From: a virus
DNA length: 22,062 bases
Strand: one strand, 5' to 3'
Virus record (IMG/VR): IMGVR_UViG_3300006920_000291
Location: 1-22,062 of that record
Under the pieces are notes generated by a model. The model was not told the DNA's origin. It searched no databases and was given only the letters and a program-made list of their open reading frames with translations. A program made the translations under genes and the position numbers. Shown piece by piece: positions 3,632 through 20,614 of this stretch (position 1 is the first letter of the stretch; each line of letters begins with the position of its first letter).

Positions 3632-5280
3632 TGGGACGTATTGTGACCAAGAATCAACCTTGTAATGATTGTGGTGGTTCAGACCCTCTTCAGATTTATG
3701 AAGATGGATCCACCTTCTGCTTCTCTTGTCGAAAATCTCACCAAGCACCCCAAGGAGTAACGGCAGTGAAAGATGATGACTTCGAACCTGTGGAAGGTAA
3801 CAGCTGGGTTTCGATTGGAGAGGTTCGTGATGATTTCCCTACTCGTGGTTTTAAAGAGCGAGGGGTCTTTAAGCAAGTTGCTGAACACTACAAGGTAAAG
3901 GTTTCTTATGACCTTGATGGGCACATCGATGCTCACTATTACCCTTACTATACAAATAACGAATTGTCCGGTTATAAGGTTAGAAATCTACCAAAAACAT
4001 TCTCGTCTATCGGGAAGGTTCGAGGTGGTCTTTTCGGACAACACAACTATAACGGGGGTAAACGTCTTGTTATCACCGAGGGCGAGATGGATACAATGGC
4101 TATCCAATCAGCTTGGTATAAACGTTATAAGACTTTCTATCCTGTTGTATCTATTCGTTCTGCTTCATCGGTTAAAGACCTGATTGAAGAAAGAGAGTGG
4201 GTACGTAACTTTGAAGAAGTAATCCTATGGTTTGACAAGGATGATGCTGGACAAGAGGCGATGAAGGAAGCCGCCCGTATCATTGGTTATGACAAGGTTA
4301 AAATTGCTAAGTCTACAGAGAAGGATGCTTCAGATCTCTGGATTAAGGAACCTGACAAGGTTCTAAAGACAGTTTATGATGCTACCAACTATACTCCTGC
4401 GGGTATCCTAAGTAAAGAAGAACTCTGGGACCAACTAGAAAAGTATAATGAGATTGAATCGGTACCATACCCACCTTTTATGGAAGGCTTAAATGATAAG
4501 CTAAAGGGTATGCGCTTCGGTGAAATCACACTATGGACTTCTGGAACTGGCTCAGGCAAATCAACACTACTACGGGAGATTGCGGTACATCTACTTGAAA
4601 CAACAGAAGAAAAAGTAGGTATCGTGTCTCTTGAGGAAAGTCCAGCAGAGACAGCTCGTAAGATGTCAGGTATGGCACTTAATCGTAATCCTGCTAACGA
4701 GGAGATTCCCTTAGAAGAGCTGAGAGAAGGCTATGAAAGGCTTTTCGGTGATGACAGGGTGCTTGTCCTAGACCACCAAGGCAGTATAAGTGATGGCTCT
4801 ATTATGGACTTCCTAGAGTACATGTGTCTCACAGGCGCAAAGTATATCTTTGTTGACCATATTACAATCCTTGCTTCGGAAGGAGCTGAGGGTCTCACCG
4901 GCAATGAAGCTATCGATCTTATCATGAATCAACTCCTTCGCCTTGTAAAGAAATACAATGTATGGATTGGTCTGATTAGTCACCTGCGTAAAACAGACAA
5001 TAAGGGTAAATCTTTTGAAGAAGGTAAACTTCCAGCTATGGATGATATCCGTGGTTCTGGCTCGATTAAGCAAATCAGTATGGATATCATTGCTTTTGCG
5101 AGGAACGTGGGTTCAAATGATGTTGAAGAACGTAACACTATTAAGACTAAGGTACTGAAGTGCCGATACACAGGGTTAACCGGGCCATCCGGAAGCCTAC
5201 TATACAACTTTAATACCGGACGCCTGTCAAGGGGTTCTAACGAGTTTGAAGAAGAATCAGAGGGATTTAAGAGAGTATGA
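3631..5280 (+). CDS. DNA primase-helicase (T7 gp4 type)
   Basis: The 549 residues are close to T7 gp4 (566). The N-terminal zinc ribbon has C11-C14 and C30-C33. The TOPRIM primase core shows LVITEGEMD (E150) and WFDKDDAG (D202, D204). The C-terminal RecA-like DnaB-family helicase has a Walker A GTGSGKST at about 305-312, a Walker B-type strand KYIFVDHITIL, LISHLRKT, and an arginine-finger region in DIRGSGSIKQ. It makes primers and unwinds the fork as a hexameric ring. The start ATG overlaps the previous stop (TAATG) with GGAGG nine bases upstream, and the end overlaps the next ATG. No truncation is seen. Confidence 0.95.
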   Translation: MGRIVTKNQPCNDCGGSDPLQIYEDGSTFCFSCRKSHQAPQGVTAVKDDDFEPVEGNSWVSIGEVRDDFPTRGFKERGVFKQVAEHYKVKVSYDLDGHIDAHYYPYYTNNELSGYKVRNLPKTFSSIGKVRGGLFGQHNYNGGKRLVITEGEMDTMAIQSAWYKRYKTFYPVVSIRSASSVKDLIEEREWVRNFEEVILWFDKDDAGQEAMKEAARIIGYDKVKIAKSTEKDASDLWIKEPDKVLKTVYDATNYTPAGILSKEELWDQLEKYNEIESVPYPPFMEGLNDKLKGMRFGEITLWTSGTGSGKSTLLREIAVHLLETTEEKVGIVSLEESPAETARKMSGMALNRNPANEEIPLEELREGYERLFGDDRVLVLDHQGSISDGSIMDFLEYMCLTGAKYIFVDHITILASEGAEGLTGNEAIDLIMNQLLRLVKKYNVWIGLISHLRKTDNKGKSFEEGKLPAMDDIRGSGSIKQISMDIIAFARNVGSNDVEERNTIKTKVLKCRYTGLTGPSGSLLYNFNTGRLSRGSNEFEEESEGFKRV

Positions 5281-5486
5281 CAGAAACAGAATTTGCACTT
5301 TCTATGTTGGCAGCTATTGTTGTTAAGAATTTTAAAAAGATTCAATTAAACGAAACCGACATGGGATATATCTCAGGGGTAATGGAAGGTTTTGACAAGT
5401 CTTCAAAGGAAGAGCAGGGGTATATTTTGAACTTTTCAGATATGCTCGCAGCTTTAGAATCTAAAAATAAAGGAATGTTAAATTGA
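5277..5486 (+). CDS. Hypothetical protein, 69 aa
   Basis: It starts in an ATGA overlap with the primase-helicase stop, so it is probably translated by coupling. The small, mostly helical protein has two segments (ALSMLAAIVVKNFKKIQ and EQGYILNFSDMLAALESK). There are no recognised motifs. The location between primase-helicase and the 144-residue gene suggests a replication accessory role, but nothing in the sequence shows it. Confidence 0.6.
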   Translation: MTETEFALSMLAAIVVKNFKKIQLNETDMGYISGVMEGFDKSSKEEQGYILNFSDMLAALESKNKGMLN

Positions 5487-5920
5487 TGGAACTAAACCCT
5501 AAATTCGAAAAAGCATGGAAATATGCAAACAATTTTATGTATGGTCGTATTAAGAACGAAGGTCACTTGACTGTATTCTTGAAAGACCCAGACGTACGCA
5601 AACAGTGGAGCGATGAAGAACGAGCTTTCCTGAAGGACGCTTGGTTTGTAATTACAACGGGCAGCTGCAGCCCCGAGAACAAAGATGTAGCTGGTGAGCC
5701 AATCCTGGAAGAAGAACTCTCTGTTGATGAATCACGTATCTATGAGGATATTGATGCTTCTATTCTTGAGGCAGAGTTTGAAACTGAAGAAGAAGTTGAC
5801 TTTGAAGCTATGACCAAGCGTCAAATTGATGAGTGGGCAGAAGAAACTCACGGTATCAAACTTGATCGCCGCCAATCAAAAACAAATATGCTAAAAGAGC
5901 TTGAAGAAAAGCTTAACTAA
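5486..5920 (+). CDS. Acidic protein with C-terminal SAP/HeH-like helix motif, 144 aa
   Basis: Start ATG 5486 overlaps the previous stop by one base, with AAAGGAA at 5468-5474; the in-frame TTG 5483 is less likely. The first 55 residues are helical (FEKAWKYANNFMYGRIKNEG). The middle is very acidic (EEELSVDESRIYEDIDAS, ETEEEVDFEAM). The end (TKRQIDEWAEETHGIKLD, then RRQSKTNMLKELEEKL) matches the short helix-extension-helix pattern seen at the ends of many phage proteins, often linked to nucleic-acid or polymerase interaction. The specific function is unknown. Confidence 0.65.
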   Translation: MELNPKFEKAWKYANNFMYGRIKNEGHLTVFLKDPDVRKQWSDEERAFLKDAWFVITTGSCSPENKDVAGEPILEEELSVDESRIYEDIDASILEAEFETEEEVDFEAMTKRQIDEWAEETHGIKLDRRQSKTNMLKELEEKLN

Positions 5921-5943
5921 TAAAAAACAAGGAAATAACTATA

Positions 5944-7812
5944 ATGACACCTTACGAACAATTCATCCACTTAAGCAGGTACTCACGTTTTCTAGGCGTC
6001 GAAGGGCGTCGTGAGTCGTGGTCTGAAACGGTAGACAGACTTGTTGGTTTTTGGCGGAAACAGGTTGGCAACAACGTGTTGACCGAAGAAGAATTCCAAG
6101 AGCTACAGACTGCTATCTACAATCGGGAAGTAATGCCTTCAATGCGAGCCATGTGGGCAGCTGGTGATGCTCTTGCTAAGAACAACTTCCGAGGTTATAA
6201 CTGCTCATTTGCTGTAGCCGATAATATCCGTGTCTTCGATGAGATTCTTTATATTCTTATGGCGGGTACTGGTGTAGGCTTCTCAGCTGAATCTCAGTAT
6301 GTAAACAAACTACCTATTGTAAATGATACCTTTAATAAAACCGAACGAGTAATCCTTGTAGAAGACTCTTCCGAGGGTTGGGCTAAGGCTCTCCGTAAGC
6401 TTATTGCTGAACTCTATCTCGGTAACGTCCATTCCTGGGATTACTCTAAGATTCGACCAGAAGGTGCCCGCCTTAAAACTATGGGTGGTCGTGCTTCCGG
6501 ACCTGAGCCTTTGAAACAACTCTTTGCCTTCACTGAGGCGACCTTCCGAAAGGCTGCTGGTCGTAAGCTTCGATCCATTGAAGTACATGATCTTGTATGT
6601 AAAATTGCTGAAGTTGTTGTTGTAGGTGGTGTCCGCCGCTCTGCACTAATTTCTATCTCCGACCTTGGAGACCCCGAGACCCGTGACTGTAAGTCTGGTC
6701 GTTGGTGGGAAACGGATCCACAACGTTCTCTTGCTAATAACTCGGCGGCTTATGAAAGCAAACCATCAATCATGGTCTTCATGGATGAGTGGATTTCCTT
6801 GATTAAATCTGGCTCAGGTGAGCGTGGTATTGTATCACGTTATGGCCTACAGAACTTTGCCCCAGAACGTCGTGATGGTTCGCAAATTGTGGGCCTTAAC
6901 CCTTGCGCAGAGATTGCCCTTCGTAGTAACCAACTTTGTAACCTTTCAGAAGTAGTTTGTCGTGTAGATGACACAAAAGAAGAACTACTTCGTAAAATCC
7001 GTATTGCTACTATTCTTGGTACGCTCCAATCTTCCCTGACTGACTTCAAATATGTTCGTAGTATCTGGAAGAAGAATTGTGAAGAAGAGCGTTTGTTAGG
7101 GGTCTCCCTGACCGGTATTCAAGACTGTAAGATTCTACGCAATCCTAAACCTAAACTGCTAGAGGAAATGAAGGGTCATGCTATTGAAGTCAATAAAGAG
7201 TATGCTCTACGCTTGGGCATTAACCCTGCGACTGCCATTACTACTATCAAACCCTCGGGTACTGTTAGCCAACTAGTGGATAGCTCCTCTGGTATTCACG
7301 GTCGCTTTTCACCGTATTATATTCGAGCAGTACGTCAGTCCAATTCTGACCCCCTGACACACCTTCTTAAGGCTCAAGGGGTTCCAAATGAACCTGATGT
7401 AATGAACCTCAATCGAACAACAGTATTCTACTTCCCAATTAAGTCACCCGGGGGTGCAACTCTTGCCTCTGAGCAGACTGCTATTGAACAGCTGGAAAAC
7501 TGGCTTTTGTTCAAGAAACACTGGGCAGAACACTCTGTGTCGGTAACTGTTTATGTTAAAGAACACGAGTGGCTTGAAGTAGGTGATTGGGTTTATAAAA
7601 ACTTTGATGTGGTAACTGGCATTAGCTTCTTGCCTTACTCAGATCACACCTATGAGCAGGCACCTTATACTCCCTGCACTGAAGAAGAGTATAACGCTGC
7701 TGTTGAAGCCATGCCTACTGTAGACTTCTCTAAGCTCTCAGACTATGAGTTTGAGGATAATACTGAAGGTTCACAGACTCTAGCTTGTAGCGCAGGTGGC
7801 TGCGAAATCTAA
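5944..7812 (+). CDS. nrdJ: Class II (adenosylcobalamin-dependent) ribonucleotide reductase
   Basis: The 622 residues resemble the monomeric B12-dependent ribonucleoside-triphosphate reductase of Lactobacillus leichmannii (739 aa), but shorter. Visible active-site residues are C87 (GYNCSF) and C332 (NQLCNL) as the reducing pair, C321 with E323 in NPCAEI as the thiyl-radical site, and C615/C620 in the C-terminal shuttle ACSAGGCEI. It makes deoxynucleotides for replication and needs host or salvaged cobalamin. No intein or frameshift is seen. AAGGAAA precedes the ATG. The glutaredoxin at 14316 is a plausible reductant. It is the last gene before a structured 118-bp gap, so a transcript may be processed or end there. 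Confidence 0.93.
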   Translation: MTPYEQFIHLSRYSRFLGVEGRRESWSETVDRLVGFWRKQVGNNVLTEEEFQELQTAIYNREVMPSMRAMWAAGDALAKNNFRGYNCSFAVADNIRVFDEILYILMAGTGVGFSAESQYVNKLPIVNDTFNKTERVILVEDSSEGWAKALRKLIAELYLGNVHSWDYSKIRPEGARLKTMGGRASGPEPLKQLFAFTEATFRKAAGRKLRSIEVHDLVCKIAEVVVVGGVRRSALISISDLGDPETRDCKSGRWWETDPQRSLANNSAAYESKPSIMVFMDEWISLIKSGSGERGIVSRYGLQNFAPERRDGSQIVGLNPCAEIALRSNQLCNLSEVVCRVDDTKEELLRKIRIATILGTLQSSLTDFKYVRSIWKKNCEEERLLGVSLTGIQDCKILRNPKPKLLEEMKGHAIEVNKEYALRLGINPATAITTIKPSGTVSQLVDSSSGIHGRFSPYYIRAVRQSNSDPLTHLLKAQGVPNEPDVMNLNRTTVFYFPIKSPGGATLASEQTAIEQLENWLLFKKHWAEHSVSVTVYVKEHEWLEVGDWVYKNFDVVTGISFLPYSDHTYEQAPYTPCTEEEYNAAVEAMPTVDFSKLSDYEFEDNTEGSQTLACSAGGCEI

Positions 7813-7839
7813 TAAACAGGAGACCTAACGTAGAGATAG

Positions 7840-7881
7840 ACTTAGGCTGATAAGTTTGGTCACTGAGGCCAGCGCCTAAGT
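7840..7881 (+). promoter_or_regulatory. Structured RNA element downstream of RNR
   Basis: ACTTAGGC (7840-7847) pairs perfectly with GCCTAAGT (7874-7881). Inside it TGGTC (7857-7861) pairs with GGCCA (7867-7871) around an ACTGA loop. The result is two stacked stems separated by a 9/2-nt internal loop. There is no following T-run, so it is not a classical terminator. It could be an RNase III-type processing site, a stability element or a leader structure for the accessory block. It is immediately followed by the repeat at 7884. Confidence 0.45.
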
Positions 7882-7883
7882 TT

Positions 7884-7909
7884 ACACCTAAGCATGTGTC
7901 TAAACTGCT
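7884..7909 (+). repeat. Conserved intergenic element, copy 1 (before accessory block)
   Basis: ACACCTAAGCATGTGTCTAAACTGCT shares 21 of 26 positions, without gaps, with 13307-13332. Consensus parts are ACACCTRAG, then AWGTGTM, then TAAACTRCT. ACAC/GTGT can form a four-bp stem with an eight-base loop. In this copy GTTT before it and AAAC after it extend the stem across a two-base bulge (7880-7905). The two copies bracket the 7931-13301 block. It could be a promoter, a processing hairpin or a remnant of block insertion. Confidence 0.55.
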
Positions 7910-7930
7910 TACATCCAAAAGGAGAAAATT

Positions 7931-8587
7931 ATGAAAAAAGTATTCAAATCCCTTCTAGGGGCAACTATCGTATCACTAGCTATGATTACTTCAAGCACTG
8001 CTTCTGCGGAGAATCTCACAATTCGGGAAGGTCAAGCAGGGGAGCCAATCATTCAGTTTGAAGGTGGCTATATTAAAGGTACTGCGAAGCGATTGAAACA
8101 GATTGCCGAGATTTCTGGTGCTAAAGTAGTTGAGTTTAATTCCAGTGGAGGTTATGCGGAAGAAGGTTATATGGCTCACGACGTTATGCTTGAGCTGGGC
8201 CTTAGCGGATTTGTACCCCGTGGTAAAACCTGCATGTCTGCATGTGCTGTTACGTTCCTCGGGGCAAAGCATAAAGATATTCAAGGTGTCCTAGGTTTTC
8301 ATCCCTCTTACATTGATGGTACTGCACCTGATGAGTTTAAGCTTGGCCAGATTGACGGTATGAATGAAACATTCTTCCTGTTGGAGAATGGTGTTTCAGG
8401 CCAGTTTATCCGTGCTTTTATGTACCTTGGTAAACCTAGCGTGTTTGCTGTGTTTACTGATAATGATGAATTTAGTAAAATCTTCGACGGTAGCTTTACA
8501 GATGTAGAGCTTATCGACCTATTCTGGAGCTTAGAAGAAATTAAGGCTTACCGGTGGCTCGTTAATGGAGGAACTTTCAATGACTAA
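7931..8587 (+). CDS. Secreted ClpP/crotonase-fold periplasmic protein
   Basis: Residues 1-26 are a clear signal peptide (MKKVFKSLLGATIVSLAMITSS then ASA before the cleavage site). The body matches the periplasmic ClpP-fold family often annotated as COG3904. It has VVEFNSSGGYAEEGYMAHDV (the oxyanion-side glycines), RGKTCMSACAVTFLGA with candidate nucleophile S103 between C101 and C105, and VLGFHPSY with candidate H124. A Ser-His serine protease or a binding protein of that fold would act in the periplasm. AAAGGAG lies at 7918-7923. It overlaps the channel-like gene that follows by eight bases, which suggests joint work at the inner membrane. Protease activity is inferred from the fold, not shown. 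Confidence 0.8.
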   Translation: MKKVFKSLLGATIVSLAMITSSTASAENLTIREGQAGEPIIQFEGGYIKGTAKRLKQIAEISGAKVVEFNSSGGYAEEGYMAHDVMLELGLSGFVPRGKTCMSACAVTFLGAKHKDIQGVLGFHPSYIDGTAPDEFKLGQIDGMNETFFLLENGVSGQFIRAFMYLGKPSVFAVFTDNDEFSKIFDGSFTDVELIDLFWSLEEIKAYRWLVNGGTFND

Positions 8588-9020
8588 GCGTTGGACAATC
8601 TGGACTGTATTTGTTACTATGTTTATCTCTCTTGGTTTTGGCGTAGCTTATGATTCCCATAACTTCTTGCTTGAAAACGATTTCACCTACATTTCTTTCG
8701 TAAATATCGCCTTACTAGTAGGTTTCACTGTTACCTGCGCTGCACAGGCTTTCCGTAAGGACTACACTACTTCTGATATGCAGTGGTTTGTTGCTGATGG
8801 TGTGTTGTCTCTTGGTATGGTGGGTACATTGGCTGGCTTCCTGATAGTCCTCTACTCAACCTTCCAAGGTCTTGATGTAGGCGACACAGAATCAATGAAG
8901 AAGGCCATCGAGACCCTTGCTACCGGCATGGGTACTGCTCTACTAACCTCTCTTGTAGGTCTAGTAGCCTCAATCACAATGAAGTTTCAACTTGTAACCT
9001 TGGAGGGGAAAAATGTCTGA
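8580..9020 (+). CDS. MotA/TolQ/ExbB-like membrane protein
   Basis: Start ATG 8580, with GGAGG at 8567-8571; the in-frame ATG 8565 lies before that site. The 146 residues have four hydrophobic segments at about 5-22, 38-56, 71-93 and 113-135. The last two carry the family pattern LSLGMVGTLAGFLIVLYSTF and IETLATGMGTALLTSLVGLV, comparable with the GllGTv.G and A...Ta.Gl helices of MotA/TolQ/ExbB. These proteins form pentameric proton channels around a dimer of MotB/TolR/ExbD. A TolR-like partner is encoded two genes downstream at 9383. The cytoplasmic loops are much shorter than in bacterial TolQ or MotA. Function in a phage is unknown. Confidence 0.75.
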   Translation: MTKRWTIWTVFVTMFISLGFGVAYDSHNFLLENDFTYISFVNIALLVGFTVTCAAQAFRKDYTTSDMQWFVADGVLSLGMVGTLAGFLIVLYSTFQGLDVGDTESMKKAIETLATGMGTALLTSLVGLVASITMKFQLVTLEGKNV

Positions 9021-9402
9021 TATGCTTGTACATAAACATATTATCCTACGAATTGAGGCTAAGAAGCCCCCAACTGAGATGGGCCTTCGGCAGTGGATGA
9101 TTGATCTAATCGACAAGATTGGTATGAATCGCCTTGCTGGACCTATCTCTGCTTGTGTAGACGTTCCCGGTAATGCTGGCCCAACCTGTGTTGTAGTCAG
9201 TGAGACTTCTCATATGTCTTGCCAGGTATGGACTGAACCAGACCCTGCACTAATCCAACTAGACGTATATACCTGTGGCCCCATTGACTATAATGCTGTT
9301 CTTGAACACATTGAGGTGTGGGAACCCACTAAAGTAGAATACAAATATCTTGACCGTGAATTTAATCTAACGGAGATTTCACATGAGGAAGTACTCAAGT
9401 AA
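9013..9402 (+). CDS. speD: S-adenosylmethionine decarboxylase-like protein (pyruvoyl family)
   Basis: The 129 residues match the small prokaryotic AdoMetDC fold. SETSHMSCQVWTE (63-75) aligns with the self-cleavage motif (xESHISxHTWPE) and gives S66 as the candidate pyruvoyl serine. LDVYTCG (83-89) aligns with the vDvFTCG catalytic cysteine (C88). The residue before the serine is Thr instead of Glu, and the later His is Gln, so substrate or activity may differ. Some phage homologues of this family are reported to decarboxylate other amino acids. AdoMetDC normally feeds polyamine synthesis. The gene overlaps both neighbours, between the TolQ-like and TolR-like genes. GGAGGGG precedes the ATG. 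The symbol marks family only. Confidence 0.75.
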   Translation: MSDMLVHKHIILRIEAKKPPTEMGLRQWMIDLIDKIGMNRLAGPISACVDVPGNAGPTCVVVSETSHMSCQVWTEPDPALIQLDVYTCGPIDYNAVLEHIEVWEPTKVEYKYLDREFNLTEISHEEVLK

Positions 9403-9979
9403 TCTAGCTTTTGTTGACCTGCTGTTTAATCTTCTTGTTGGTTTTACCTCTCTTTTCATTATTGCTTTTTTGATGATTAACCCAATATCAAAACAGGGTC
9501 AAGTTGATCCACCAGTAATGATGATGGTACAAATGCGCTGGGATGACAGCTCTGTGCACGATGTTGACCTGTGGGTAGAATCCCCAAATTCTATTGTAGG
9601 TTTCTCTAATGAGGAGAGTGGTTACGTATCACTAGATCGTGATGACCTTGGCCTCAAGAATGATACCTATGTTGTTAATGGCGAAGAAAGGAAAGTACTG
9701 CGTAACTATGAAGTTGTAAACTTTACTGCGCTACCTGATGGTGAATATACCATTAATATTCACATGTTCTCCTTCAAGTTTGTGGGAGAGGAAAAGGTAT
9801 CGGTCACTGTAACGATGTTGAGCCCTTATAATGAAGTATGGACTGGTGATATTATTTTAAAAAGGGCACGTGAGGAACATACTGCAATTACTTTTGTAGT
9901 TGTAAACGGTAAAGTTGTTGACTTGAATGACAAGATACAAAAGCCAATCCGTAAATCTGTAGAAGGTTCCCGTCCATGA
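9383..9979 (+). CDS. TolR/MotB-like protein with periplasmic beta domain
   Basis: The N-terminus LAFVDLLFNLLVGFTSLFII (8-27) is a single transmembrane helix with an embedded aspartate (D12), as in MotB, TolR and ExbD, where this Asp carries protons. The rest (about 40-198) should be periplasmic and beta-rich, with DVDLWVESPN, SLDRDDLGLKNDTYVV, LPDGEYTINIHMF and a C-terminal strand region. This DVDLWV-type domain with a TolR-like anchor also occurs in bacterial proteins of unknown role. It lacks an OmpA-like peptidoglycan-binding domain. The likely partner is the channel protein at 8580. GGAGA precedes the ATG; overlaps with both neighbours indicate coupled translation. Confidence 0.7.
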   Translation: MRKYSSNLAFVDLLFNLLVGFTSLFIIAFLMINPISKQGQVDPPVMMMVQMRWDDSSVHDVDLWVESPNSIVGFSNEESGYVSLDRDDLGLKNDTYVVNGEERKVLRNYEVVNFTALPDGEYTINIHMFSFKFVGEEKVSVTVTMLSPYNEVWTGDIILKRAREEHTAITFVVVNGKVVDLNDKIQKPIRKSVEGSRP

Positions 9980-10419
9980 TATATATTGTAGCACTAAGTA
10001 TTATTATGACACTTCTAATAATTTATCTTGTGTATGTGTCTAATATCAAGTTTATGATTAAGTTGGTTTGTTTCCCCGTAATGCTTGGGTTGTCTGGCCT
10101 AGCCGGGCATCATTACATTATTAACTTAGGGGCACCTCAGTCTAGAGAAATCCCAGATAAGTTTGAATACAGACACCATATGGTAATGGTAGATGATACG
10201 ATACTTGTTTGGTTAAGGGTGGACGATGAAGAGCGTTTAATAAGAGTTGCTTATGACAGAGAGTTAGCTAAGGCTTTAGAAGAAGCTAAGGAGATGCAAG
10301 AGGGCGGCGGTTATCCTGAAGTTGGGGGTGGAGAAGAACTTTTGGAAGATCCTTCAAATCAACGCCCATGGAAGGTAGAAGACGTTACGCCAACTGGGGC
10401 AGAATCGGAGACTAAATAA
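9976..10419 (+). CDS. Two-helix membrane protein, 147 aa
   Basis: ATGA overlap with the previous gene. Two hydrophobic helices (about 2-21 and 27-51) are followed by a soluble region (HHMVMVDDTILVWLRVDDEE, then a helix RELAKALEEAKEMQEGG) and a flexible Gly/Glu/Pro tail. No enzyme motif is seen. Its place between the TolR-like protein and the SbmA-like transporter suggests another part of the same membrane assembly. The next gene begins directly after its stop (TAAATG) with GGAG inside this gene. Confidence 0.65.
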   Translation: MIYIVALSIIMTLLIIYLVYVSNIKFMIKLVCFPVMLGLSGLAGHHYIINLGAPQSREIPDKFEYRHHMVMVDDTILVWLRVDDEERLIRVAYDRELAKALEEAKEMQEGGGYPEVGGGEELLEDPSNQRPWKVEDVTPTGAESETK

Positions 10420-11391
10420 ATGTTTCTTTTCTTCAAAACTAAAAAGTGGGCTGTATGGGCGTATGCTGGTGCAGTTTTTATTCTTACTATGATTTACCTT
10501 CAAGTTCAGGTAGACGTAGCTATCAACACGTGGTTCGGAACATTCTATGATATGATTCAGAATGCCCTGACCAAACCGGGCAGCATTACTATGACTGAGT
10601 ACACGGGCGGTTTGCTGTCTTTTGGCAAGCTAGCTGGTATCTGGGTTAGTATCGCAATCTTTAGTGCATTCTTCACTAGTCACTTCCTGTTCCGGTGGCG
10701 CACTAGTATGGTGGAGTGGTATCACTCTGTCTACGATAAAGCTTCCTCTATTGAGGGGGCTTCCCAACGTGTTCAAGAGGATACTATCAAGTTCTCACGT
10801 ATCGTTGAGAATCTCGGTGTATCCTTGATTGAGAGTGTTATGATTATTATAGAGTTCTTCCCTATCCTGATTGGTCTAGGCGCAGGTATTAGTGTCCTTT
10901 GGTTTGGAGACTGGGAATATGGACTTGTTACAGGAGCTCTACTTTGGAGCGTTGTTGGTACTGTTGCCCTTGTTATTTCTGGTTACTTGTTGCGACTTGT
11001 CGGTATTGAGTATGATATCCAAGCACGAGAGGCGGCTTACAGGAAGGCCCTCGTCATTGCTGAAGATGGAAATTTCCGTCCAAAGACAATCGCAGAACTT
11101 TATGAATCACTACGGAGAGTCCATTACTATAGCTACTTCCAGTACCTTAAATTTAACGTAGTACGTATGGCCTACCTACAGGCAAATGTTCTAACTGCTT
11201 ACATCTTCCTTGCTCCTGCCATTGTGGGCGGGGTAATCACCCTCGGGGTTATGCAGCAGATTATTAGAGCTTTTGGTCGTGTAGAGGGTTCTATGCAGTT
11301 TATTCTAAAGAGCTGGCCAACTATCATTGAGCTTCTCTCTGTAGCAAAACGTCTACGTGAATTTGAAAAAGAAATCAAAGCCAATTATTGA
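10420..11391 (+). CDS. SbmA/BacA-family peptide transporter
   Basis: The 323 residues align well by eye with E. coli SbmA from about residue 85 to the C-terminus. Examples are VDVAINTWFGTFYDMIQNAL, FRWRTSMVEWY (91-101), IEGASQRVQEDTIKF (111-125), VENLGVSLIESVM, RVHYYSYFQYLKFNVVRMAY and KSWPTIIELLSVAKRLREFE. SbmA and BacA are inner-membrane, proton-driven importers of peptides such as microcins and Pro-rich peptides. The phage version lacks the first 80 or so residues, including the first SbmA helix, but keeps the remaining core without breaks. Neighbours are a channel-like pair upstream and a ClpP-like protease downstream. Import activity is an inference. Confidence 0.85.
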   Translation: MFLFFKTKKWAVWAYAGAVFILTMIYLQVQVDVAINTWFGTFYDMIQNALTKPGSITMTEYTGGLLSFGKLAGIWVSIAIFSAFFTSHFLFRWRTSMVEWYHSVYDKASSIEGASQRVQEDTIKFSRIVENLGVSLIESVMIIIEFFPILIGLGAGISVLWFGDWEYGLVTGALLWSVVGTVALVISGYLLRLVGIEYDIQAREAAYRKALVIAEDGNFRPKTIAELYESLRRVHYYSYFQYLKFNVVRMAYLQANVLTAYIFLAPAIVGGVITLGVMQQIIRAFGRVEGSMQFILKSWPTIIELLSVAKRLREFEKEIKANY

Positions 11392-11412
11392 ATCTATCTA
11401 AGGAAAACAAAT

Positions 11413-12117
11413 ATGTTTAATCGCTTTTCACAAAATAAATCCCCTTTCATTCGCTCTCTCGACATTGAGGAAGAGGAAGAAATCGAAGTATTTGAAGAAG
11501 AAGAACCTGAAGAGGAGACAGGGGAAGAAGAGGAAGACACCATGGAATCTGAGGGTTTCACCATGCCAGCTCTGGGACACATATCACGGGCAAACGGTGT
11601 ACTACTTCTTTCTGGTGTATTTAACAATGATAACATCCTACCTATTGTGAACAGCATTTATGAGTATAACTTGATGTCTGATGAAGTGCGCCCCGAGCGA
11701 CTTACTCTTATTATCAATAGCCCCGGTGGTCGTGTAGATTCTTGTAAGATGCTGATCGATTCTATGTGGATGTCTTCTATTCCTGTAGATACCCTGGCTT
11801 CCGGTATTGCAATGTCATGTGGTGTTATTACTTTAATGGCTGGCAGTTACCGCATGGCTACTACTAACTCTGAGATTATGTCTCACCAGTATGCAGGCGG
11901 TGTAGGTGGTAAGCAACACGAAATCTTTGGCGCTATGAAATCTCATGAGATGATGTCTCGCTGGATTGAGGACCACTATAAAGAGTGCACAGGGCTTACC
12001 CGTCGTAAAATTCGTAAGAAGCTTCTATCACCCACTGATGCATTTATGAATGCTAAAGAAGCTAAGAAATACAACATTATTGATGAGGTCATTAAGCCTC
12101 AACGCATTGTAGGATAA
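11413..12117 (+). CDS. ClpP-like cytoplasmic serine protease with acidic N-terminus
   Basis: The 234-residue ClpP-fold protein has the catalytic triad: S135 in SGIAMSCG, H158 in IMSHQ and D209 in SPTDAFMN. It also has INSPGGRVDSCKMLIDSM and the family ending AKEAKKYNIIDEVI. No signal peptide is present. Residues 18-46 are almost all Glu/Asp, an extension not found in bacterial ClpP (mature about 193 aa). It may steer interaction with an unfoldase or keep the enzyme inactive until cleaved. Phage ClpP-like enzymes are often prohead proteases, but here no capsid gene is near; neighbours are a peptide transporter and an amino-acid dehydrogenase. AAGGAAA precedes the ATG. Confidence 0.85.
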   Translation: MFNRFSQNKSPFIRSLDIEEEEEIEVFEEEEPEEETGEEEEDTMESEGFTMPALGHISRANGVLLLSGVFNNDNILPIVNSIYEYNLMSDEVRPERLTLIINSPGGRVDSCKMLIDSMWMSSIPVDTLASGIAMSCGVITLMAGSYRMATTNSEIMSHQYAGGVGGKQHEIFGAMKSHEMMSRWIEDHYKECTGLTRRKIRKKLLSPTDAFMNAKEAKKYNIIDEVIKPQRIVG

Positions 12118-12121
12118 ACTA

Positions 12122-13174
12122 ATGATTGAATATAAACTGTTTGATTCACCGGGGCACGAGCTTGTTGTGGTAGCTTCGGATAACGATACAAACTTTCTAG
12201 CAGTTATTGCTATACACAATACTGAGCTCGGTCCAGCTCTTGGTGGAATACGTATGAAAGCTTACGATGGCCCTGTTGGGGCCGTTGTAGACGCCTTGCG
12301 ACTCTCAGAAGGTATGACCTACAAGAATGCTGCTGCCGGACTTCCGTTCGGTGGTGGCAAGTCTGTCATTGTAGCAGCTGAATGGAACTCCGAAGTTTCT
12401 GACCAGTTCGCTGAGTTCCTTAACTATGTTAATGACGAACTGGGGGTAGAGTACTACGGCGCTCCTGATATGAATACTAATAATGGTTGTATGTTTGATA
12501 TTCAAGAGTCTGGCTCGGACAAGGTTGTCTTTAACGAAGATGGTGGTGACTGTAGTGAATCTACTGCTTATGGTGTTCTTCAAAGTTTACTTGCTTTACA
12601 AACCTTTAGCAATATTGAAGATGCCTCTAAGATGACAGTTAACATTGAAGGTCTCGGTAAAGTCGGTGCTCGTCTTGCTAAGTACTGTAAGGATGCTGGC
12701 TTTGATGTTTGTGTATCTGACATTGACAAGGATAAAGCACTTGCTATGGCTTCTTATCATGGTTACGCTTTTGCTGCTCCAGAGGACATTAGTTATCTCC
12801 CCGGTGTATACTGCCCTTGTGCTGTTGGTGAAACTGTAACAAAGGAATGGATTAAAGATACAGAGGCTTTTGCAGTTTGTGGAGCAGCCAATAATCAGTT
12901 GGATAAGATTGATACGGGTAAGTTCCTTGCTATTAACAACATTCTGTATATTCCTGACTTTATCGCTAATGCCGGGGGTGTTATCTCTGTCGGTGTAGCT
13001 GTCGAGAACGGTTTAAACTCTGGGTTTGGTCTTGAAAACCCCCATGTACTTGAACGTGTAGAGTTTATTCGTTCACAAGCACGAGCTATTCTCATGGCTC
13101 AAACAACTAATATTGAAACAAGAAACGCACAGTTACTCGCCATTAAGGCTGTGCAATCAAGTTTGGAGAAATAA
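12122..13174 (+). CDS. Leucine dehydrogenase-like amino-acid dehydrogenase
   Basis: The 350 residues are close to Bacillus leucine dehydrogenase (about 364-366). LGPALGGIRM (36-45), GMTYKNAAAGLPFGGGKSVI with K68 (substrate carboxylate) and K80 (catalytic), and APDMNT with D116 are all kept at near-identical positions. The NAD domain shows EGLGKVG (176-182), the D200 acid for NAD ribose, CGAANNQL, and IPDFIANAGGVISV. The family reversibly deaminates Leu, Val and Ile to 2-oxoacids with NADH and ammonia. The C-terminus is about 15 residues shorter. It starts five bases after the ClpP-like stop. Exact substrate is uncertain: Glu/Leu/Phe/Val dehydrogenases share this fold. Confidence 0.87.
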   Translation: MIEYKLFDSPGHELVVVASDNDTNFLAVIAIHNTELGPALGGIRMKAYDGPVGAVVDALRLSEGMTYKNAAAGLPFGGGKSVIVAAEWNSEVSDQFAEFLNYVNDELGVEYYGAPDMNTNNGCMFDIQESGSDKVVFNEDGGDCSESTAYGVLQSLLALQTFSNIEDASKMTVNIEGLGKVGARLAKYCKDAGFDVCVSDIDKDKALAMASYHGYAFAAPEDISYLPGVYCPCAVGETVTKEWIKDTEAFAVCGAANNQLDKIDTGKFLAINNILYIPDFIANAGGVISVGVAVENGLNSGFGLENPHVLERVEFIRSQARAILMAQTTNIETRNAQLLAIKAVQSSLEK

Positions 13175-13175
13175 A

Positions 13176-13301
13176 ATGAAGAAAGATATTGCTTTCGGAG
13201 CAGGTGCTGCCCTTGGGATTGTATTCCGGGTTGCCATTAACCTTGGTGTAGTTTGGCTAAACCTATGGCTGCTAACACAATTCGGTTGGCTACCCTTCTA
13301 A
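13176..13301 (+). CDS. Tiny membrane protein, 41 aa
   Basis: Start ATG 13176, one base after the dehydrogenase stop, with GGAGAA at 13164-13169. The upstream in-frame start at 13113 lies inside the dehydrogenase gene and is unlikely. The product MKKDIAFGAGAALGIVFRVA... is hydrophobic, with either one long or two short helices and an aromatic C-terminus (FGWLPF). It closes the accessory block. It could be a small subunit of a membrane complex encoded upstream. No family is recognised. Confidence 0.6.
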   Translation: MKKDIAFGAGAALGIVFRVAINLGVVWLNLWLLTQFGWLPF

Positions 13302-19283: not shown

Positions 19284-19811
19284 ATGACAGATATTAGTCT
19301 TCACGAAGGACAATCAGAGATTATCAACGATTTGTTTGTTGAAGAGAATAATAGATACGCTGTTGTATGTGCCTCACGGGGCTTCGGTAAGTCTTATCTT
19401 GCTGCTACAGCTGCTATGTTGGCTGTCCAAGAACTTATGGATTTACCTGATGATGTTCCCAACAAAAATGTAGCGATTATCGCCCCCACCTACTCACAAG
19501 CTGTTGATATTTACTACCCACTACTTGCCTACCAGTTGGGTATGGAGGGGTTCGCTGATAAAGCCTCTAGGGCTGCAGGTACCTTCTGGTTCCCCGGTAA
19601 CGTACAACTAAAGATTTGGTCGTATGAGGCTTCAGAGCGTATGCGGGGTACTGGTCAGTACTTTGTGGTGGCAGATGAAGTGTGCTCTTGGAAGGGTGCT
19701 GGTATAACCTTAAGGAATCTTGGGAGTCTATCATTCAGCCTTGTGTGTCTACTCGTTGGTCACGTAAGAACTCTAAAGCCTATGGAGCTAGCCCCGGTAG
19801 AGCGCTTATAA
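19284..19811 (+). CDS. terL: Terminase large subunit, N-terminal ATPase part (frameshifted)
   Basis: ATG with AGGAA at 19271-19275. It carries the packaging ATPase: Walker A variant CASRGFGKS (29-37), KNVAIIAPTYSQAVDI, YEASERMRGTG, and Walker B FVVADE (D131, E132). After SWKGAG near residue 140 the homology stops: the frame continues with an unrelated tail (ITLRNLGSLSFSL...) to 19811, while the expected sequence (YNLKESWESIIQP) continues in the -1 frame. The shift must fall after the TGA at 19676 in that frame, most likely near 19700-19706. An extra T making GGTTAT would restore GAG-YNL. No X-XXY-YYZ slippery heptamer is visible there, so a sequencing error or real mutation is more likely than programmed shifting. 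Confidence 0.85.
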   Translation: MTDISLHEGQSEIINDLFVEENNRYAVVCASRGFGKSYLAATAAMLAVQELMDLPDDVPNKNVAIIAPTYSQAVDIYYPLLAYQLGMEGFADKASRAAGTFWFPGNVQLKIWSYEASERMRGTGQYFVVADEVCSWKGAGITLRNLGSLSFSLVCLLVGHVRTLKPMELAPVERL

Positions 19812-20614
19812 TTAGTACTCCAATGGGCTATGATTATTTCTGGGAAATGTTTAACAGACAAGAGATTGACAAAGATTGGAAGAGCTACCACTACACTTAC
19901 CACGATTCACCGTACCTCGATGAAGAAGAAATTGAAAGAGTTAAGCTAACACTAGACCCTCTAAAGTTTGCTAGGGAATATACCGCTAGCTTTGAGGATT
20001 CTGGTAATAACGTATTCTATTGCTTTAATCGTAAAGAACATATCGATGATACTCTCCCTCAGTTTGATGCTGGTGAAGATGTTCATGTAGCTATTGACTT
20101 CAACGTAGGTATTATGGCTTCAGTTGTCTTTGCTATCCGTGGTAACCAAATGCACATCATTGATGAGATGCAAGGGCACCCTGATACGGAGACACTATCA
20201 AGGGCACTAACAGACAAGTACAGGGGCCATCGCATTATCAGCTACCCAGACCCGGCTGGTAAGGCTCGTAAGAGTTCTGCTGCTGTTGGTCGTACTGACT
20301 TTAGTATTCTAGAATCTTATAAGATTGTAACTCGTGCTCATAGTAAAGCACCACCTATCATTGACTCGGTGGCTGCTGTTAACAAGAAGTTCAAGAATGC
20401 TAATGGTGATATAGACATCTATGTACACCCTCGGTGTGTCAACACCATCAAGTCTCTAGAGCGTACTCAGTGGGTGGAGAGCAATCCTAACCTTGCTACT
20501 ATCTGTAAGAAAGAAGGTGTGGAACACTGGACTGATGCTTTACGTTATGCGGTAGAGTATATATGGCCTATCCGTGCTGGCTCTAAAGTAGTCACTAAGG
20601 GATTTGGCTTCTAA
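19682..20614 (+). CDS. terL: Terminase large subunit, C-terminal nuclease part (frameshifted)
   Basis: This frame (-1 relative to the ATPase part) encodes the rest of TerL from about YNLKESWESIIQPCVSTRW. It includes motif III-like ALIISTPMGYDYFWEMF, HDSPYLDEEEIERVK, LKFAREYTASF, and an RNase H-like nuclease with HVAIDFNVGIM, SYPDPAGKARKSS and HWTDALRYAVEYIWP, which supply the metal-binding aspartates. The first residues in this frame before YNL are not homologous, and no ribosome binding site gives an independent start. Joined to the ATPase part it gives about 443 residues, a normal TerL length. The nuclease cuts concatemers for packaging. Confidence 0.87.
   Translation: MLLEGCWYNLKESWESIIQPCVSTRWSRKNSKAYGASPGRALIISTPMGYDYFWEMFNRQEIDKDWKSYHYTYHDSPYLDEEEIERVKLTLDPLKFAREYTASFEDSGNNVFYCFNRKEHIDDTLPQFDAGEDVHVAIDFNVGIMASVVFAIRGNQMHIIDEMQGHPDTETLSRALTDKYRGHRIISYPDPAGKARKSSAAVGRTDFSILESYKIVTRAHSKAPPIIDSVAAVNKKFKNANGDIDIYVHPRCVNTIKSLERTQWVESNPNLATICKKEGVEHWTDALRYAVEYIWPIRAGSKVVTKGFGF

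Follow-up and report, generated by a model that had tools for sequence, protein, structure and literature searches.

A 22,062-nucleotide stretch of viral DNA (IMG/VR virus record IMGVR_UViG_3300006920_000291, positions 1 to 22,062; the whole stretch is referred to here as the window) carries a module of nine genes on the + strand (7931-13301), the invariant core of which is a trio encoding an ExbB-like protein, a TolR-like protein, and a membrane protein designated g9976. Judged by sequence and by analogy with known systems, the trio is likely to be a proton-driven stator, and the product of its second gene, as modeled, seems to combine a helix of the stator type with a TerD-like head. A cassette in which the trio stands with a transporter of the SbmA type is found in unlike phages. 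The reading that we favor, tentatively and short of calling it probable, is that this phage envelope cassette salvages peptides during infection, aided by the dedicated proton-driven stator; we favor it because proteases from several families cluster around the transporter, together with an amino-acid dehydrogenase. The genes of the module are:

Gene 1, 7931..8587, + strand: ClpPsec, a secreted protein of 218 amino acids (aa) with a predicted ClpP/crotonase fold (AlphaFold2 model, Foldseek)
Gene 2, 8565..9020 (start perhaps 8580), + strand: ExbB/MotA-like putative proton-channel subunit, 151 aa (Pfam PF01618, sub-threshold)
Gene 3, 9013..9402, + strand: adenosylmethionine decarboxylase (AdoMetDC)-like protein, 129 aa (Pfam AdoMet_dc, PF02675, 2.3e-9)
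Gene 4, 9383..9979, + strand: TolR/ExbD-like subunit, with an N-terminal helix bearing Asp12 and a predicted periplasmic TerD-like beta-sandwich
Gene 5, 9976..10419, + strand: g9976, a membrane protein whose homologues follow TolR in phages and in bacteria
Gene 6, 10420..11391, + strand: SbmA-like transporter, proton-coupled and peptide-transporting by family, 323 aa, without the TM0 part (PF05992)
Gene 7, 11413..12117, + strand: ClpP-like serine protease with an acidic N-terminal extension and no evident signal peptide (PF00574)
Gene 8, 12122..13174, + strand: Leu/Phe/Trp dehydrogenase-like enzyme (LeuDH, for leucine dehydrogenase; PF02812, PF00208)
Gene 9, 13176..13301, + strand: small hydrophobic protein, 41 aa, with an ATG start

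The coordinates of the open reading frames (ORFs) bear out the initial annotation of nine + strand genes in this order and with almost no space between them, adjacent genes either overlapping or lying close together (the largest gap is 21 bases), and its naming of SbmA/BacA, ClpP, and AdoMetDC-like proteins agrees with clear Pfam matches. Genes 1, 5, and 9 have no Pfam match (gene 9 in a longer form with a TTG start). The module sits between a ribonucleotide reductase (RNR) gene and a dCMP-deaminase/glutaredoxin block.

Viral contigs were fetched by scans with single proteins (SbmA, LeuDH, ExbB, or TolR) or with a TolR alignment, and 88 were left after duplicates were removed. Because many of these are near copies of one another, the contig counts do not represent independent events; partner genes are counted anywhere within the distance limit (for bacteria, anywhere in the locus) and not strictly adjoining TolR. 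The trio is present in 60 of the 88 contigs, the trio together with SbmA in 44, and all six shared genes in 33, with the order ClpPsec-ExbB-TolR-g9976-SbmA-ClpP in 28. Seventy contigs were retrieved through TolR, and among those with enough flanking sequence for each partner TolR is accompanied by ExbB in 68/68, g9976 in 61/61, ClpPsec in 49/63, SbmA in 33/46, and ClpP in 27/38. ExbB lies upstream of TolR in the tabulated viral loci, and ClpPsec is on the opposite strand in two contigs (L103 and L108). The trio also accompanies 12 of the 29 SbmA-retrieved contigs with sufficient flank. The six-gene order is retained even where TolR identity has fallen to about 40-57%, and as it is found again in many contigs that were assembled separately, we regard it as more than chance. 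A blastn comparison of the whole module with 50,697 phage records returned no match. Marine Alphaproteobacteria are the presumed hosts of phages with the cassette. The initial annotation had proposed a joint pathway and had named the lack of a conserved neighborhood as the principal objection to it; because most of the module genes recur together, in unrelated as well as related phages, that objection is removed. The earlier account had most of the conserved set right, but it missed the trio as the core, the occurrence of the trio in bacteria, and the phages that carry it free of SbmA, ClpP, and LeuDH.

The constancy of ExbB and g9976 beside TolR, and the persistence of the six-gene order at such divergence, speak against the reading of the region as a loose cluster of independent auxiliary genes with no joint function, at a locus that tolerates insertions and with ClpP perhaps acting as a capsid maturation protease. 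We consider that reading very unlikely, and note in its favor that the presence of LeuDH, SbmA, and ClpP varies among contigs, that the AdoMetDC gene is an insertion in the window contig, and that ClpP matches the PHROGs head maturation protease family (the latter two points are described below).

The stator assignment of the trio draws on several comparisons. Gene 2 matches the Pfam family MotA_ExbB (PF01618) at 2.7e-4, with 21.1 bits just under the cut-off of 22.9, and its homologue in a bacterial locus (L113) scores 35.5 bits; a profile of the ExbB family compared with the Protein Data Bank (PDB) matched MotA, ZorA, and ExbB at E-values of 0.0018-0.096. Gene 4 has one weak Pfam match only (0.068), and it is assigned as TolR-like because of its N-terminal membrane helix with an invariant Asp and its position after ExbB. 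The residue, Asp12, is present in 20/20 sequences from marine and Rhizobium phages, and by analogy with stator B subunits we take it to be the ion-carrying residue. By eye, the topology of the third protein, g9976, is that of two helices plus a C-terminal domain that is conserved and probably periplasmic.

An AlphaFold2 model of gene 4 (mean predicted local distance difference test score, pLDDT, of 84.7) has no plain Foldseek match for its periplasmic part at E-values up to 0.001. Compared with VIA-align, the top six rows range from Z 12.5 to 9.9, and the seventh falls to 6.6. Three of the six are titled as TerD or a TerD homologue: 3ibz (Z 12.5; root-mean-square deviation 3.4, 140 residues aligned), 2qz7 (10.9), and 2kxt (9.9); the others are 2qng, of unknown function (11.2), 9a6r_B (10.9), and 7jtk_A (10.7). 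As modeled, then, the periplasmic part folds as a TerD-like beta-sandwich, and fold likeness by itself shows no function. Identification of gene 4 as TerD by sequence was rejected, there being no PF02342 match at E-values up to 0.1; the same family was not matched in any of 10 genomes bearing the TolR-like gene, and a comparison of TolR-like and TerD profiles gave no signal, a weak negative in that only a handful of TerD proteins was available. The initial calls of TolQ-like and TolR-like proteins hold for the invariant Asp and, at a sub-threshold Pfam score, for the ExbB/MotA-like core, but not for the periplasmic part, which is not TolR-like.

The trio resembles the TolQR, ExbBD, and MotAB systems, which are 5:2 ion-driven motors, in placing a putative channel protein of the MotA/TolQ/ExbB type beside a partner that has a single helix and a conserved Asp within the membrane. 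It differs from them in its short A subunit (151 aa in the phage, compared with 246 aa in bacterial locus L113), in the TerD-like fold predicted for its B subunit, in the additional g9976, and in being phage-encoded with a protease and SbmA. Membership in the Tol-Pal system was rejected: no TolR periplasmic domain was recognized, the periplasmic part being TerD-like in the model, and among the nine module genes there is no Pfam match to TolA, TolB, or Pal, nor to TonB. In the available portion of a 2025 survey of stators (PMC12505986), diverse domain-of-unknown-function (DUF) appendages are described on the Exb/Tol scaffold; the term DUF2135 does not occur in that portion.

The proton-channel membrane core is also shared with ZorA of the Zorya defense system (ZorAB). 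Membership in Zorya was rejected, since the ExbB-like protein, at 151 aa, has no long ZorA tail and its TolR-like partner has no PADLOC match. The likeness does bear on a second interpretation, that the module serves superinfection exclusion or envelope defense, the stator rivaling or blocking the host Tol/Ton motors used by other phages and bacteriocins, the secreted protease cutting incoming proteins, and SbmA with ClpP clearing antimicrobial peptides. The defense-model matches of the ExbB-like protein are to the membrane parts of ZorA; the trio, sometimes with a secreted protease, is the part common to Rhizobium phages such as 16-3; and pIII of phage fd binds TolQR, according to the text available for PMC10424213. 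The ZorA matches are, however, limited to the generic membrane core, the six other window proteins tested (genes 1 and 3-7) gave no PADLOC hit, and such a function has no need of LeuDH or of the M42 aminopeptidase described below. We think exclusion unlikely, though a serious rival, and it would if true represent a phage-borne, proton-driven exclusion machine that is equally testable.

Gene 6 belongs unambiguously to SbmA_BacA (PF05992; 5.2e-122, 407.7 bits against a cut-off of 24), and it reaches 380.5 bits with the NCBIfam model PRK12369 (cut-off 385). Residues 4-320 align to positions 77-394 of Escherichia coli SbmA. In the E. coli protein a ladder of glutamates (E193, E203, E269, E276, E287, and E378) is described whose loss stops or impairs transport, in the portion available of PMC13316013, and by alignment the equivalents in the window protein are E120, E130, E197, E204, E215, and E304. 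These are conserved in nearly all sequences with a letter at the position: E120 in 64/64, E130 in 63/64, E197, E204, and E215 in 63/63 each, and E304 in 62/62. The phage protein shares with the SbmA/BacA (SLiPT) family this six-glutamate ladder and PF05992, and no nucleotide-binding domain was found in it by Pfam. It departs from the known members in being phage-borne and linked to a stator, and in lacking the first ~73 residues of E. coli SbmA, the N-terminal part in which the available text of the same source places the TM0 helices (PMC13316013); a test for these peripheral helices was negative. By sequence, gene 6 thus retains every key residue known for such a transporter, and peptide uptake is its putative function.

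A second group of 15 of the 88 contigs, up to 123 kb in length, has SbmA with no other module gene within 6 kb (L006, L009-L011, L013-L015, L017, L018, L020-L023, L028, and L030). The neighbors of SbmA in this group are conserved and mostly unannotated, and one that was tested has no Pfam family. SbmA matches in four phage records were set aside, as host DNA is possible there: two of the records measure just 7.5 and 2.7 kb, and the other two, each of 254 kb, belong to a single Acinetobacter phage.

Two ClpP-related proteins flank the trio and transporter. ClpPsec has a Sec-type signal peptide (by eye) and the motifs CxSACA and GFH, with C101, S103, C105, and H124 invariant in 16 aligned sequences. 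Its AlphaFold2 model (pLDDT 87.6) finds ClpP as its best Foldseek matches in the PDB (E-value 2.4e-6), in support of the secreted ClpP-fold protein of the initial annotation; as modeled, its fold is of the ClpP/crotonase type, and the Ser and His are conserved. Gene 7 matches CLP_protease (PF00574) at 2.6e-27, and its triad is conserved, S135 and H158 in 41/41 sequences and D209 in 38/38. In PHROGs its best match is head maturation protease (phrog_94, 2.5e-24), ahead of ATP-dependent protease (3.4e-15). It adjoins SbmA and no identified capsid gene; the window ends shortly past the terminase. Other hydrolases occur beside SbmA in two other contigs, with an M42 aminopeptidase between SbmA and LeuDH in L004, and a subtilase with a lipoprotein-like start (by eye) between SbmA and ClpP in L005. 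As a separate observation, another contig has, upstream of its trio, a gene (L096:3443-3925) for a secreted protein of 160 aa that by eye resembles a lone subtilase prodomain; its relative in L102 has no Pfam match.

Gene 8 belongs by sequence to the Glu/Leu/Phe/Val dehydrogenase fold family (ELFV_dehydrog_N, PF02812, 1.3e-16, plus PF00208), with Glu/Leu/Phe/Val and leucine dehydrogenases as its best PDB relatives. The catalytic Lys/Asp residues are present (K68, K80, and D116 are each conserved in 7/7 sequences), so that the intact catalytic Lys noted at the outset is borne out; leucine specificity is putative, and the best NCBIfam model, the tryptophan dehydrogenase ScyB, scores 184 bits, far below its cut-off of 600. 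LeuDH is variously placed before ClpP, after ClpP, or after the M42 gene, and also occurs in a lineage that has the trio and in which SbmA was not found. Of the 34 loci in a scan with LeuDH, 10 have trio genes nearby, six of them on contigs already known and four new (L215, L219, L220, and L221); SbmA was not found in the new ones.

The AdoMetDC gene fares differently. None of the first 36 viral loci examined has a relative of it, and the sole one in 136 viral loci (duplicates included) is a 69% identical protein on a 68-kb viral contig, L202 (10965-11336), about 5 kb from a LeuDH gene near 5986, with no trio gene found in the stretch examined. The AdoMetDC gene is absent from every other trio-bearing locus examined, and it is an insertion in the window contig; it was rejected as a part of the core module, and its inclusion in the joint set by the initial annotation is not supported.

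TolR relatives are present in 27 named phage records, all of phages of Rhizobium or Sinorhizobium. In the six Rhizobium phages opened, profiles place ExbB before and g9976 after TolR, the g9976 match being weak in one (E-value 0.019). In Rhizobium phage 16-3, within p036-p042, three proteins that carry no functional annotation (p038, p040, and p042) correspond in that order to the profiles of ExbB, TolR, and g9976, and p036, annotated as a trypsin-like protease, lies upstream of the trio; unlike in the module, SbmA and ClpP have no match among the 16-3 proteins tested. An annotated protease also lies just upstream of the trio in RHph_X2_25 and RHph_TM3_3_14B, and about 3 kb downstream of it in RHph_N3_19.

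A scan of bacterial genomes gave 131 TolR relatives, of which the best 80 loci were used; L110 is among them, as are two rows that bear the titles Harrisonbacteria and Parcubacteria. These loci are mostly proteobacterial, and ExbB is present in 80/80 and g9976 in 69/80. They have the same trio, in most cases in the same order as in the phages; they differ in an added lipoprotein-like gene (by eye), which starts within 900 bases after TolR in at least 44/80 loci, a lower bound because the gene caller missed some genes in GC-rich loci, and in the absence of ClpP, ClpPsec, and LeuDH (0/80 each). The lipoprotein-like gene has a weak DUF3108-like match in one locus. SbmA is found in one locus, L110, a 6.7-kb contig that is probably a phage fragment since its TolR falls inside the phage clade. 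The chromosomal set of ExbB, TolR with a TerD-like part, g9976, and lipoprotein-like protein (L113:7235-9798 and similar loci in Alpha- and Gammaproteobacteria) is apparently an unnamed envelope stator system, and an L,D-transpeptidase-like gene (by eye) is in the neighborhood of five of the bacterial loci. Among 190 sampled genomes of the class to which that of L134 belongs (titled uncultured Alphaproteobacteria), 23 encode a TolR-like protein, two of which were already known.

A TolR tree was built after truncated and duplicate loci were excluded (149 rows) and the remainder dereplicated at 80% identity (63 rows). The 24 rows counted as phage, including L110, form one clade with support of 100/99, which contains the window and L084, a contig sharing a T4-type baseplate gene with L087. 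The SbmA-free group L096-L098, to which L102 is related, lies outside this main phage clade, and the Rhizobium phages lie elsewhere, in two places; for the latter, the starred branches of the tree require no fewer than two changes. Because phage trios occupy separate places in the tree, we infer that the trio moved between bacteria and phages more than once, the direction of movement itself being a matter of interpretation.

The salvage of peptides, as we envisage it, would proceed as follows. Powered by the proton gradient, the stator would work on the outer envelope or on the secreted protein, making proteins or peptides available in the periplasm, where ClpPsec, or another likely secreted protease in some phages, would cut them. 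SbmA would import the resulting peptides together with protons, ClpP and peptidases would complete their breakdown, and LeuDH could convert branched or aromatic amino acids, yielding oxoacid, NADH, and ammonium on which phage synthesis could draw. A more elaborate version we hold to be doubtful. In it the virus would bring its own proton-driven motor to the envelope, a 5:2 stator whose periplasmic head is TerD-like, and this would mobilize envelope or external protein, the peptides passing through SbmA to viral proteases and dehydrogenases and so feeding the host cytoplasm. The trio would then also be a bacterial envelope machine that has yet to be described, and that bacteria and phages have exchanged on more than one occasion.

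Several observations weigh against peptide salvage. The parts also occur apart: the trio occurs with no SbmA, ClpP, or LeuDH nearby in nine of the 88 contigs (in one of these, L102, it lies beside T4-type neck and tail-sheath genes), SbmA occurs without any trio gene in 18 (three of them with ClpPsec), and ClpP occurs without SbmA in six. LeuDH is patchy, being present in 3/33 TolR-retrieved contigs with enough flank, and 24 of the 34 LeuDH loci have no module gene nearby. In the six Rhizobium phages the trio occurs without SbmA and ClpP, for which no match was obtained among the proteins tested, and in two of them (RHph_N34 and RL2RES) the stretch read has no gene annotated as a protease; in bacteria the trio's companion is a lipoprotein and not proteases. 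The protease activity of ClpPsec is putative, and gene 7 may have a capsid role, as its best PHROGs match would suggest. The available portion of PMC13316013, moreover, calls the physiological role of SbmA unclear. Since the trio occurs without SbmA, proteases, or LeuDH, and in bacteria with a lipoprotein, peptide uptake is not necessarily its core role and its own task is more general, perhaps the moving or opening of something in the periplasm or outer membrane.

A further point against peptide salvage is that one contig, L219, from a lineage with LeuDH and PhoH-like genes, suits another explanation equally well. There (4871-8514) the trio lies between a lysozyme-like gene upstream and a SleB-like hydrolase gene downstream (both by eye), and two Rhizobium phages have genes annotated as lysozyme some 3.5 kb upstream of the trio. 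These settings fit a weakening of the envelope for lysis or virion release, in which the stator and secreted hydrolases would, at a late stage of infection, destabilize the cell wall and the outer membrane, with SbmA, ClpP, and LeuDH as separate cargo. The module of the window, however, is located between RNR and dCMP-deaminase/glutaredoxin genes, and the complete glutamate ladder of SbmA is left unexplained, and we judge this explanation, though a serious rival, distinctly improbable.

Among the open-access papers listed on SbmA, stators, phage 16-3, and TerD-TolR/ExbD, none describes such a cassette in phages in its title or the opening of its abstract, and no open-access paper was found on leucine dehydrogenase as a phage auxiliary metabolic gene. 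If peptide salvage by the cassette is correct, phages would go beyond the theft of central-metabolism genes and operate, within the envelope of the host, a machine powered by protons, and in ocean ecology it would point to the salvage of proteins or peptides during infection. The ExbB-TolR-g9976 trio that Alpha- and Gammaproteobacteria carry would also gain a first functional handle, and a stator would be seen to bear a TerD-like domain. The unclear natural role of transporters of the SbmA type could then be tested in a virus whose copy has the glutamate ladder intact.

The 22-kb source contig is a virus record, and it carries genes for RNR (weak Pfam matches to class II, strong PHROGs match), primase-helicase, exonuclease, and terminase. 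Among the matches listed, the best named-phage relatives of the primase-helicase are those of roseophages CRP-7 and DSS3_VP1, at 50-51% identity. The start of gene 9 is most likely the ATG at 13176, one base past the LeuDH stop; an alternative TTG at 13113 in the ORF list overlaps LeuDH, and the longer product has a weak PHROGs match (0.046) to a family without an assigned function. Promoter-like sites number 17 in the window (11.9 expected) and terminator-like sites three (4.3 expected), counts that give nothing to build on. The terminase large subunit is apparently split into overlapping frames at 19284-19811 (assigned by eye) and 19682-20614; in the related contig L035 it is one frame of 443 aa. 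The end of the contig (21743-22062) is a tandem repeat of a 51-base unit in 6.3 copies.

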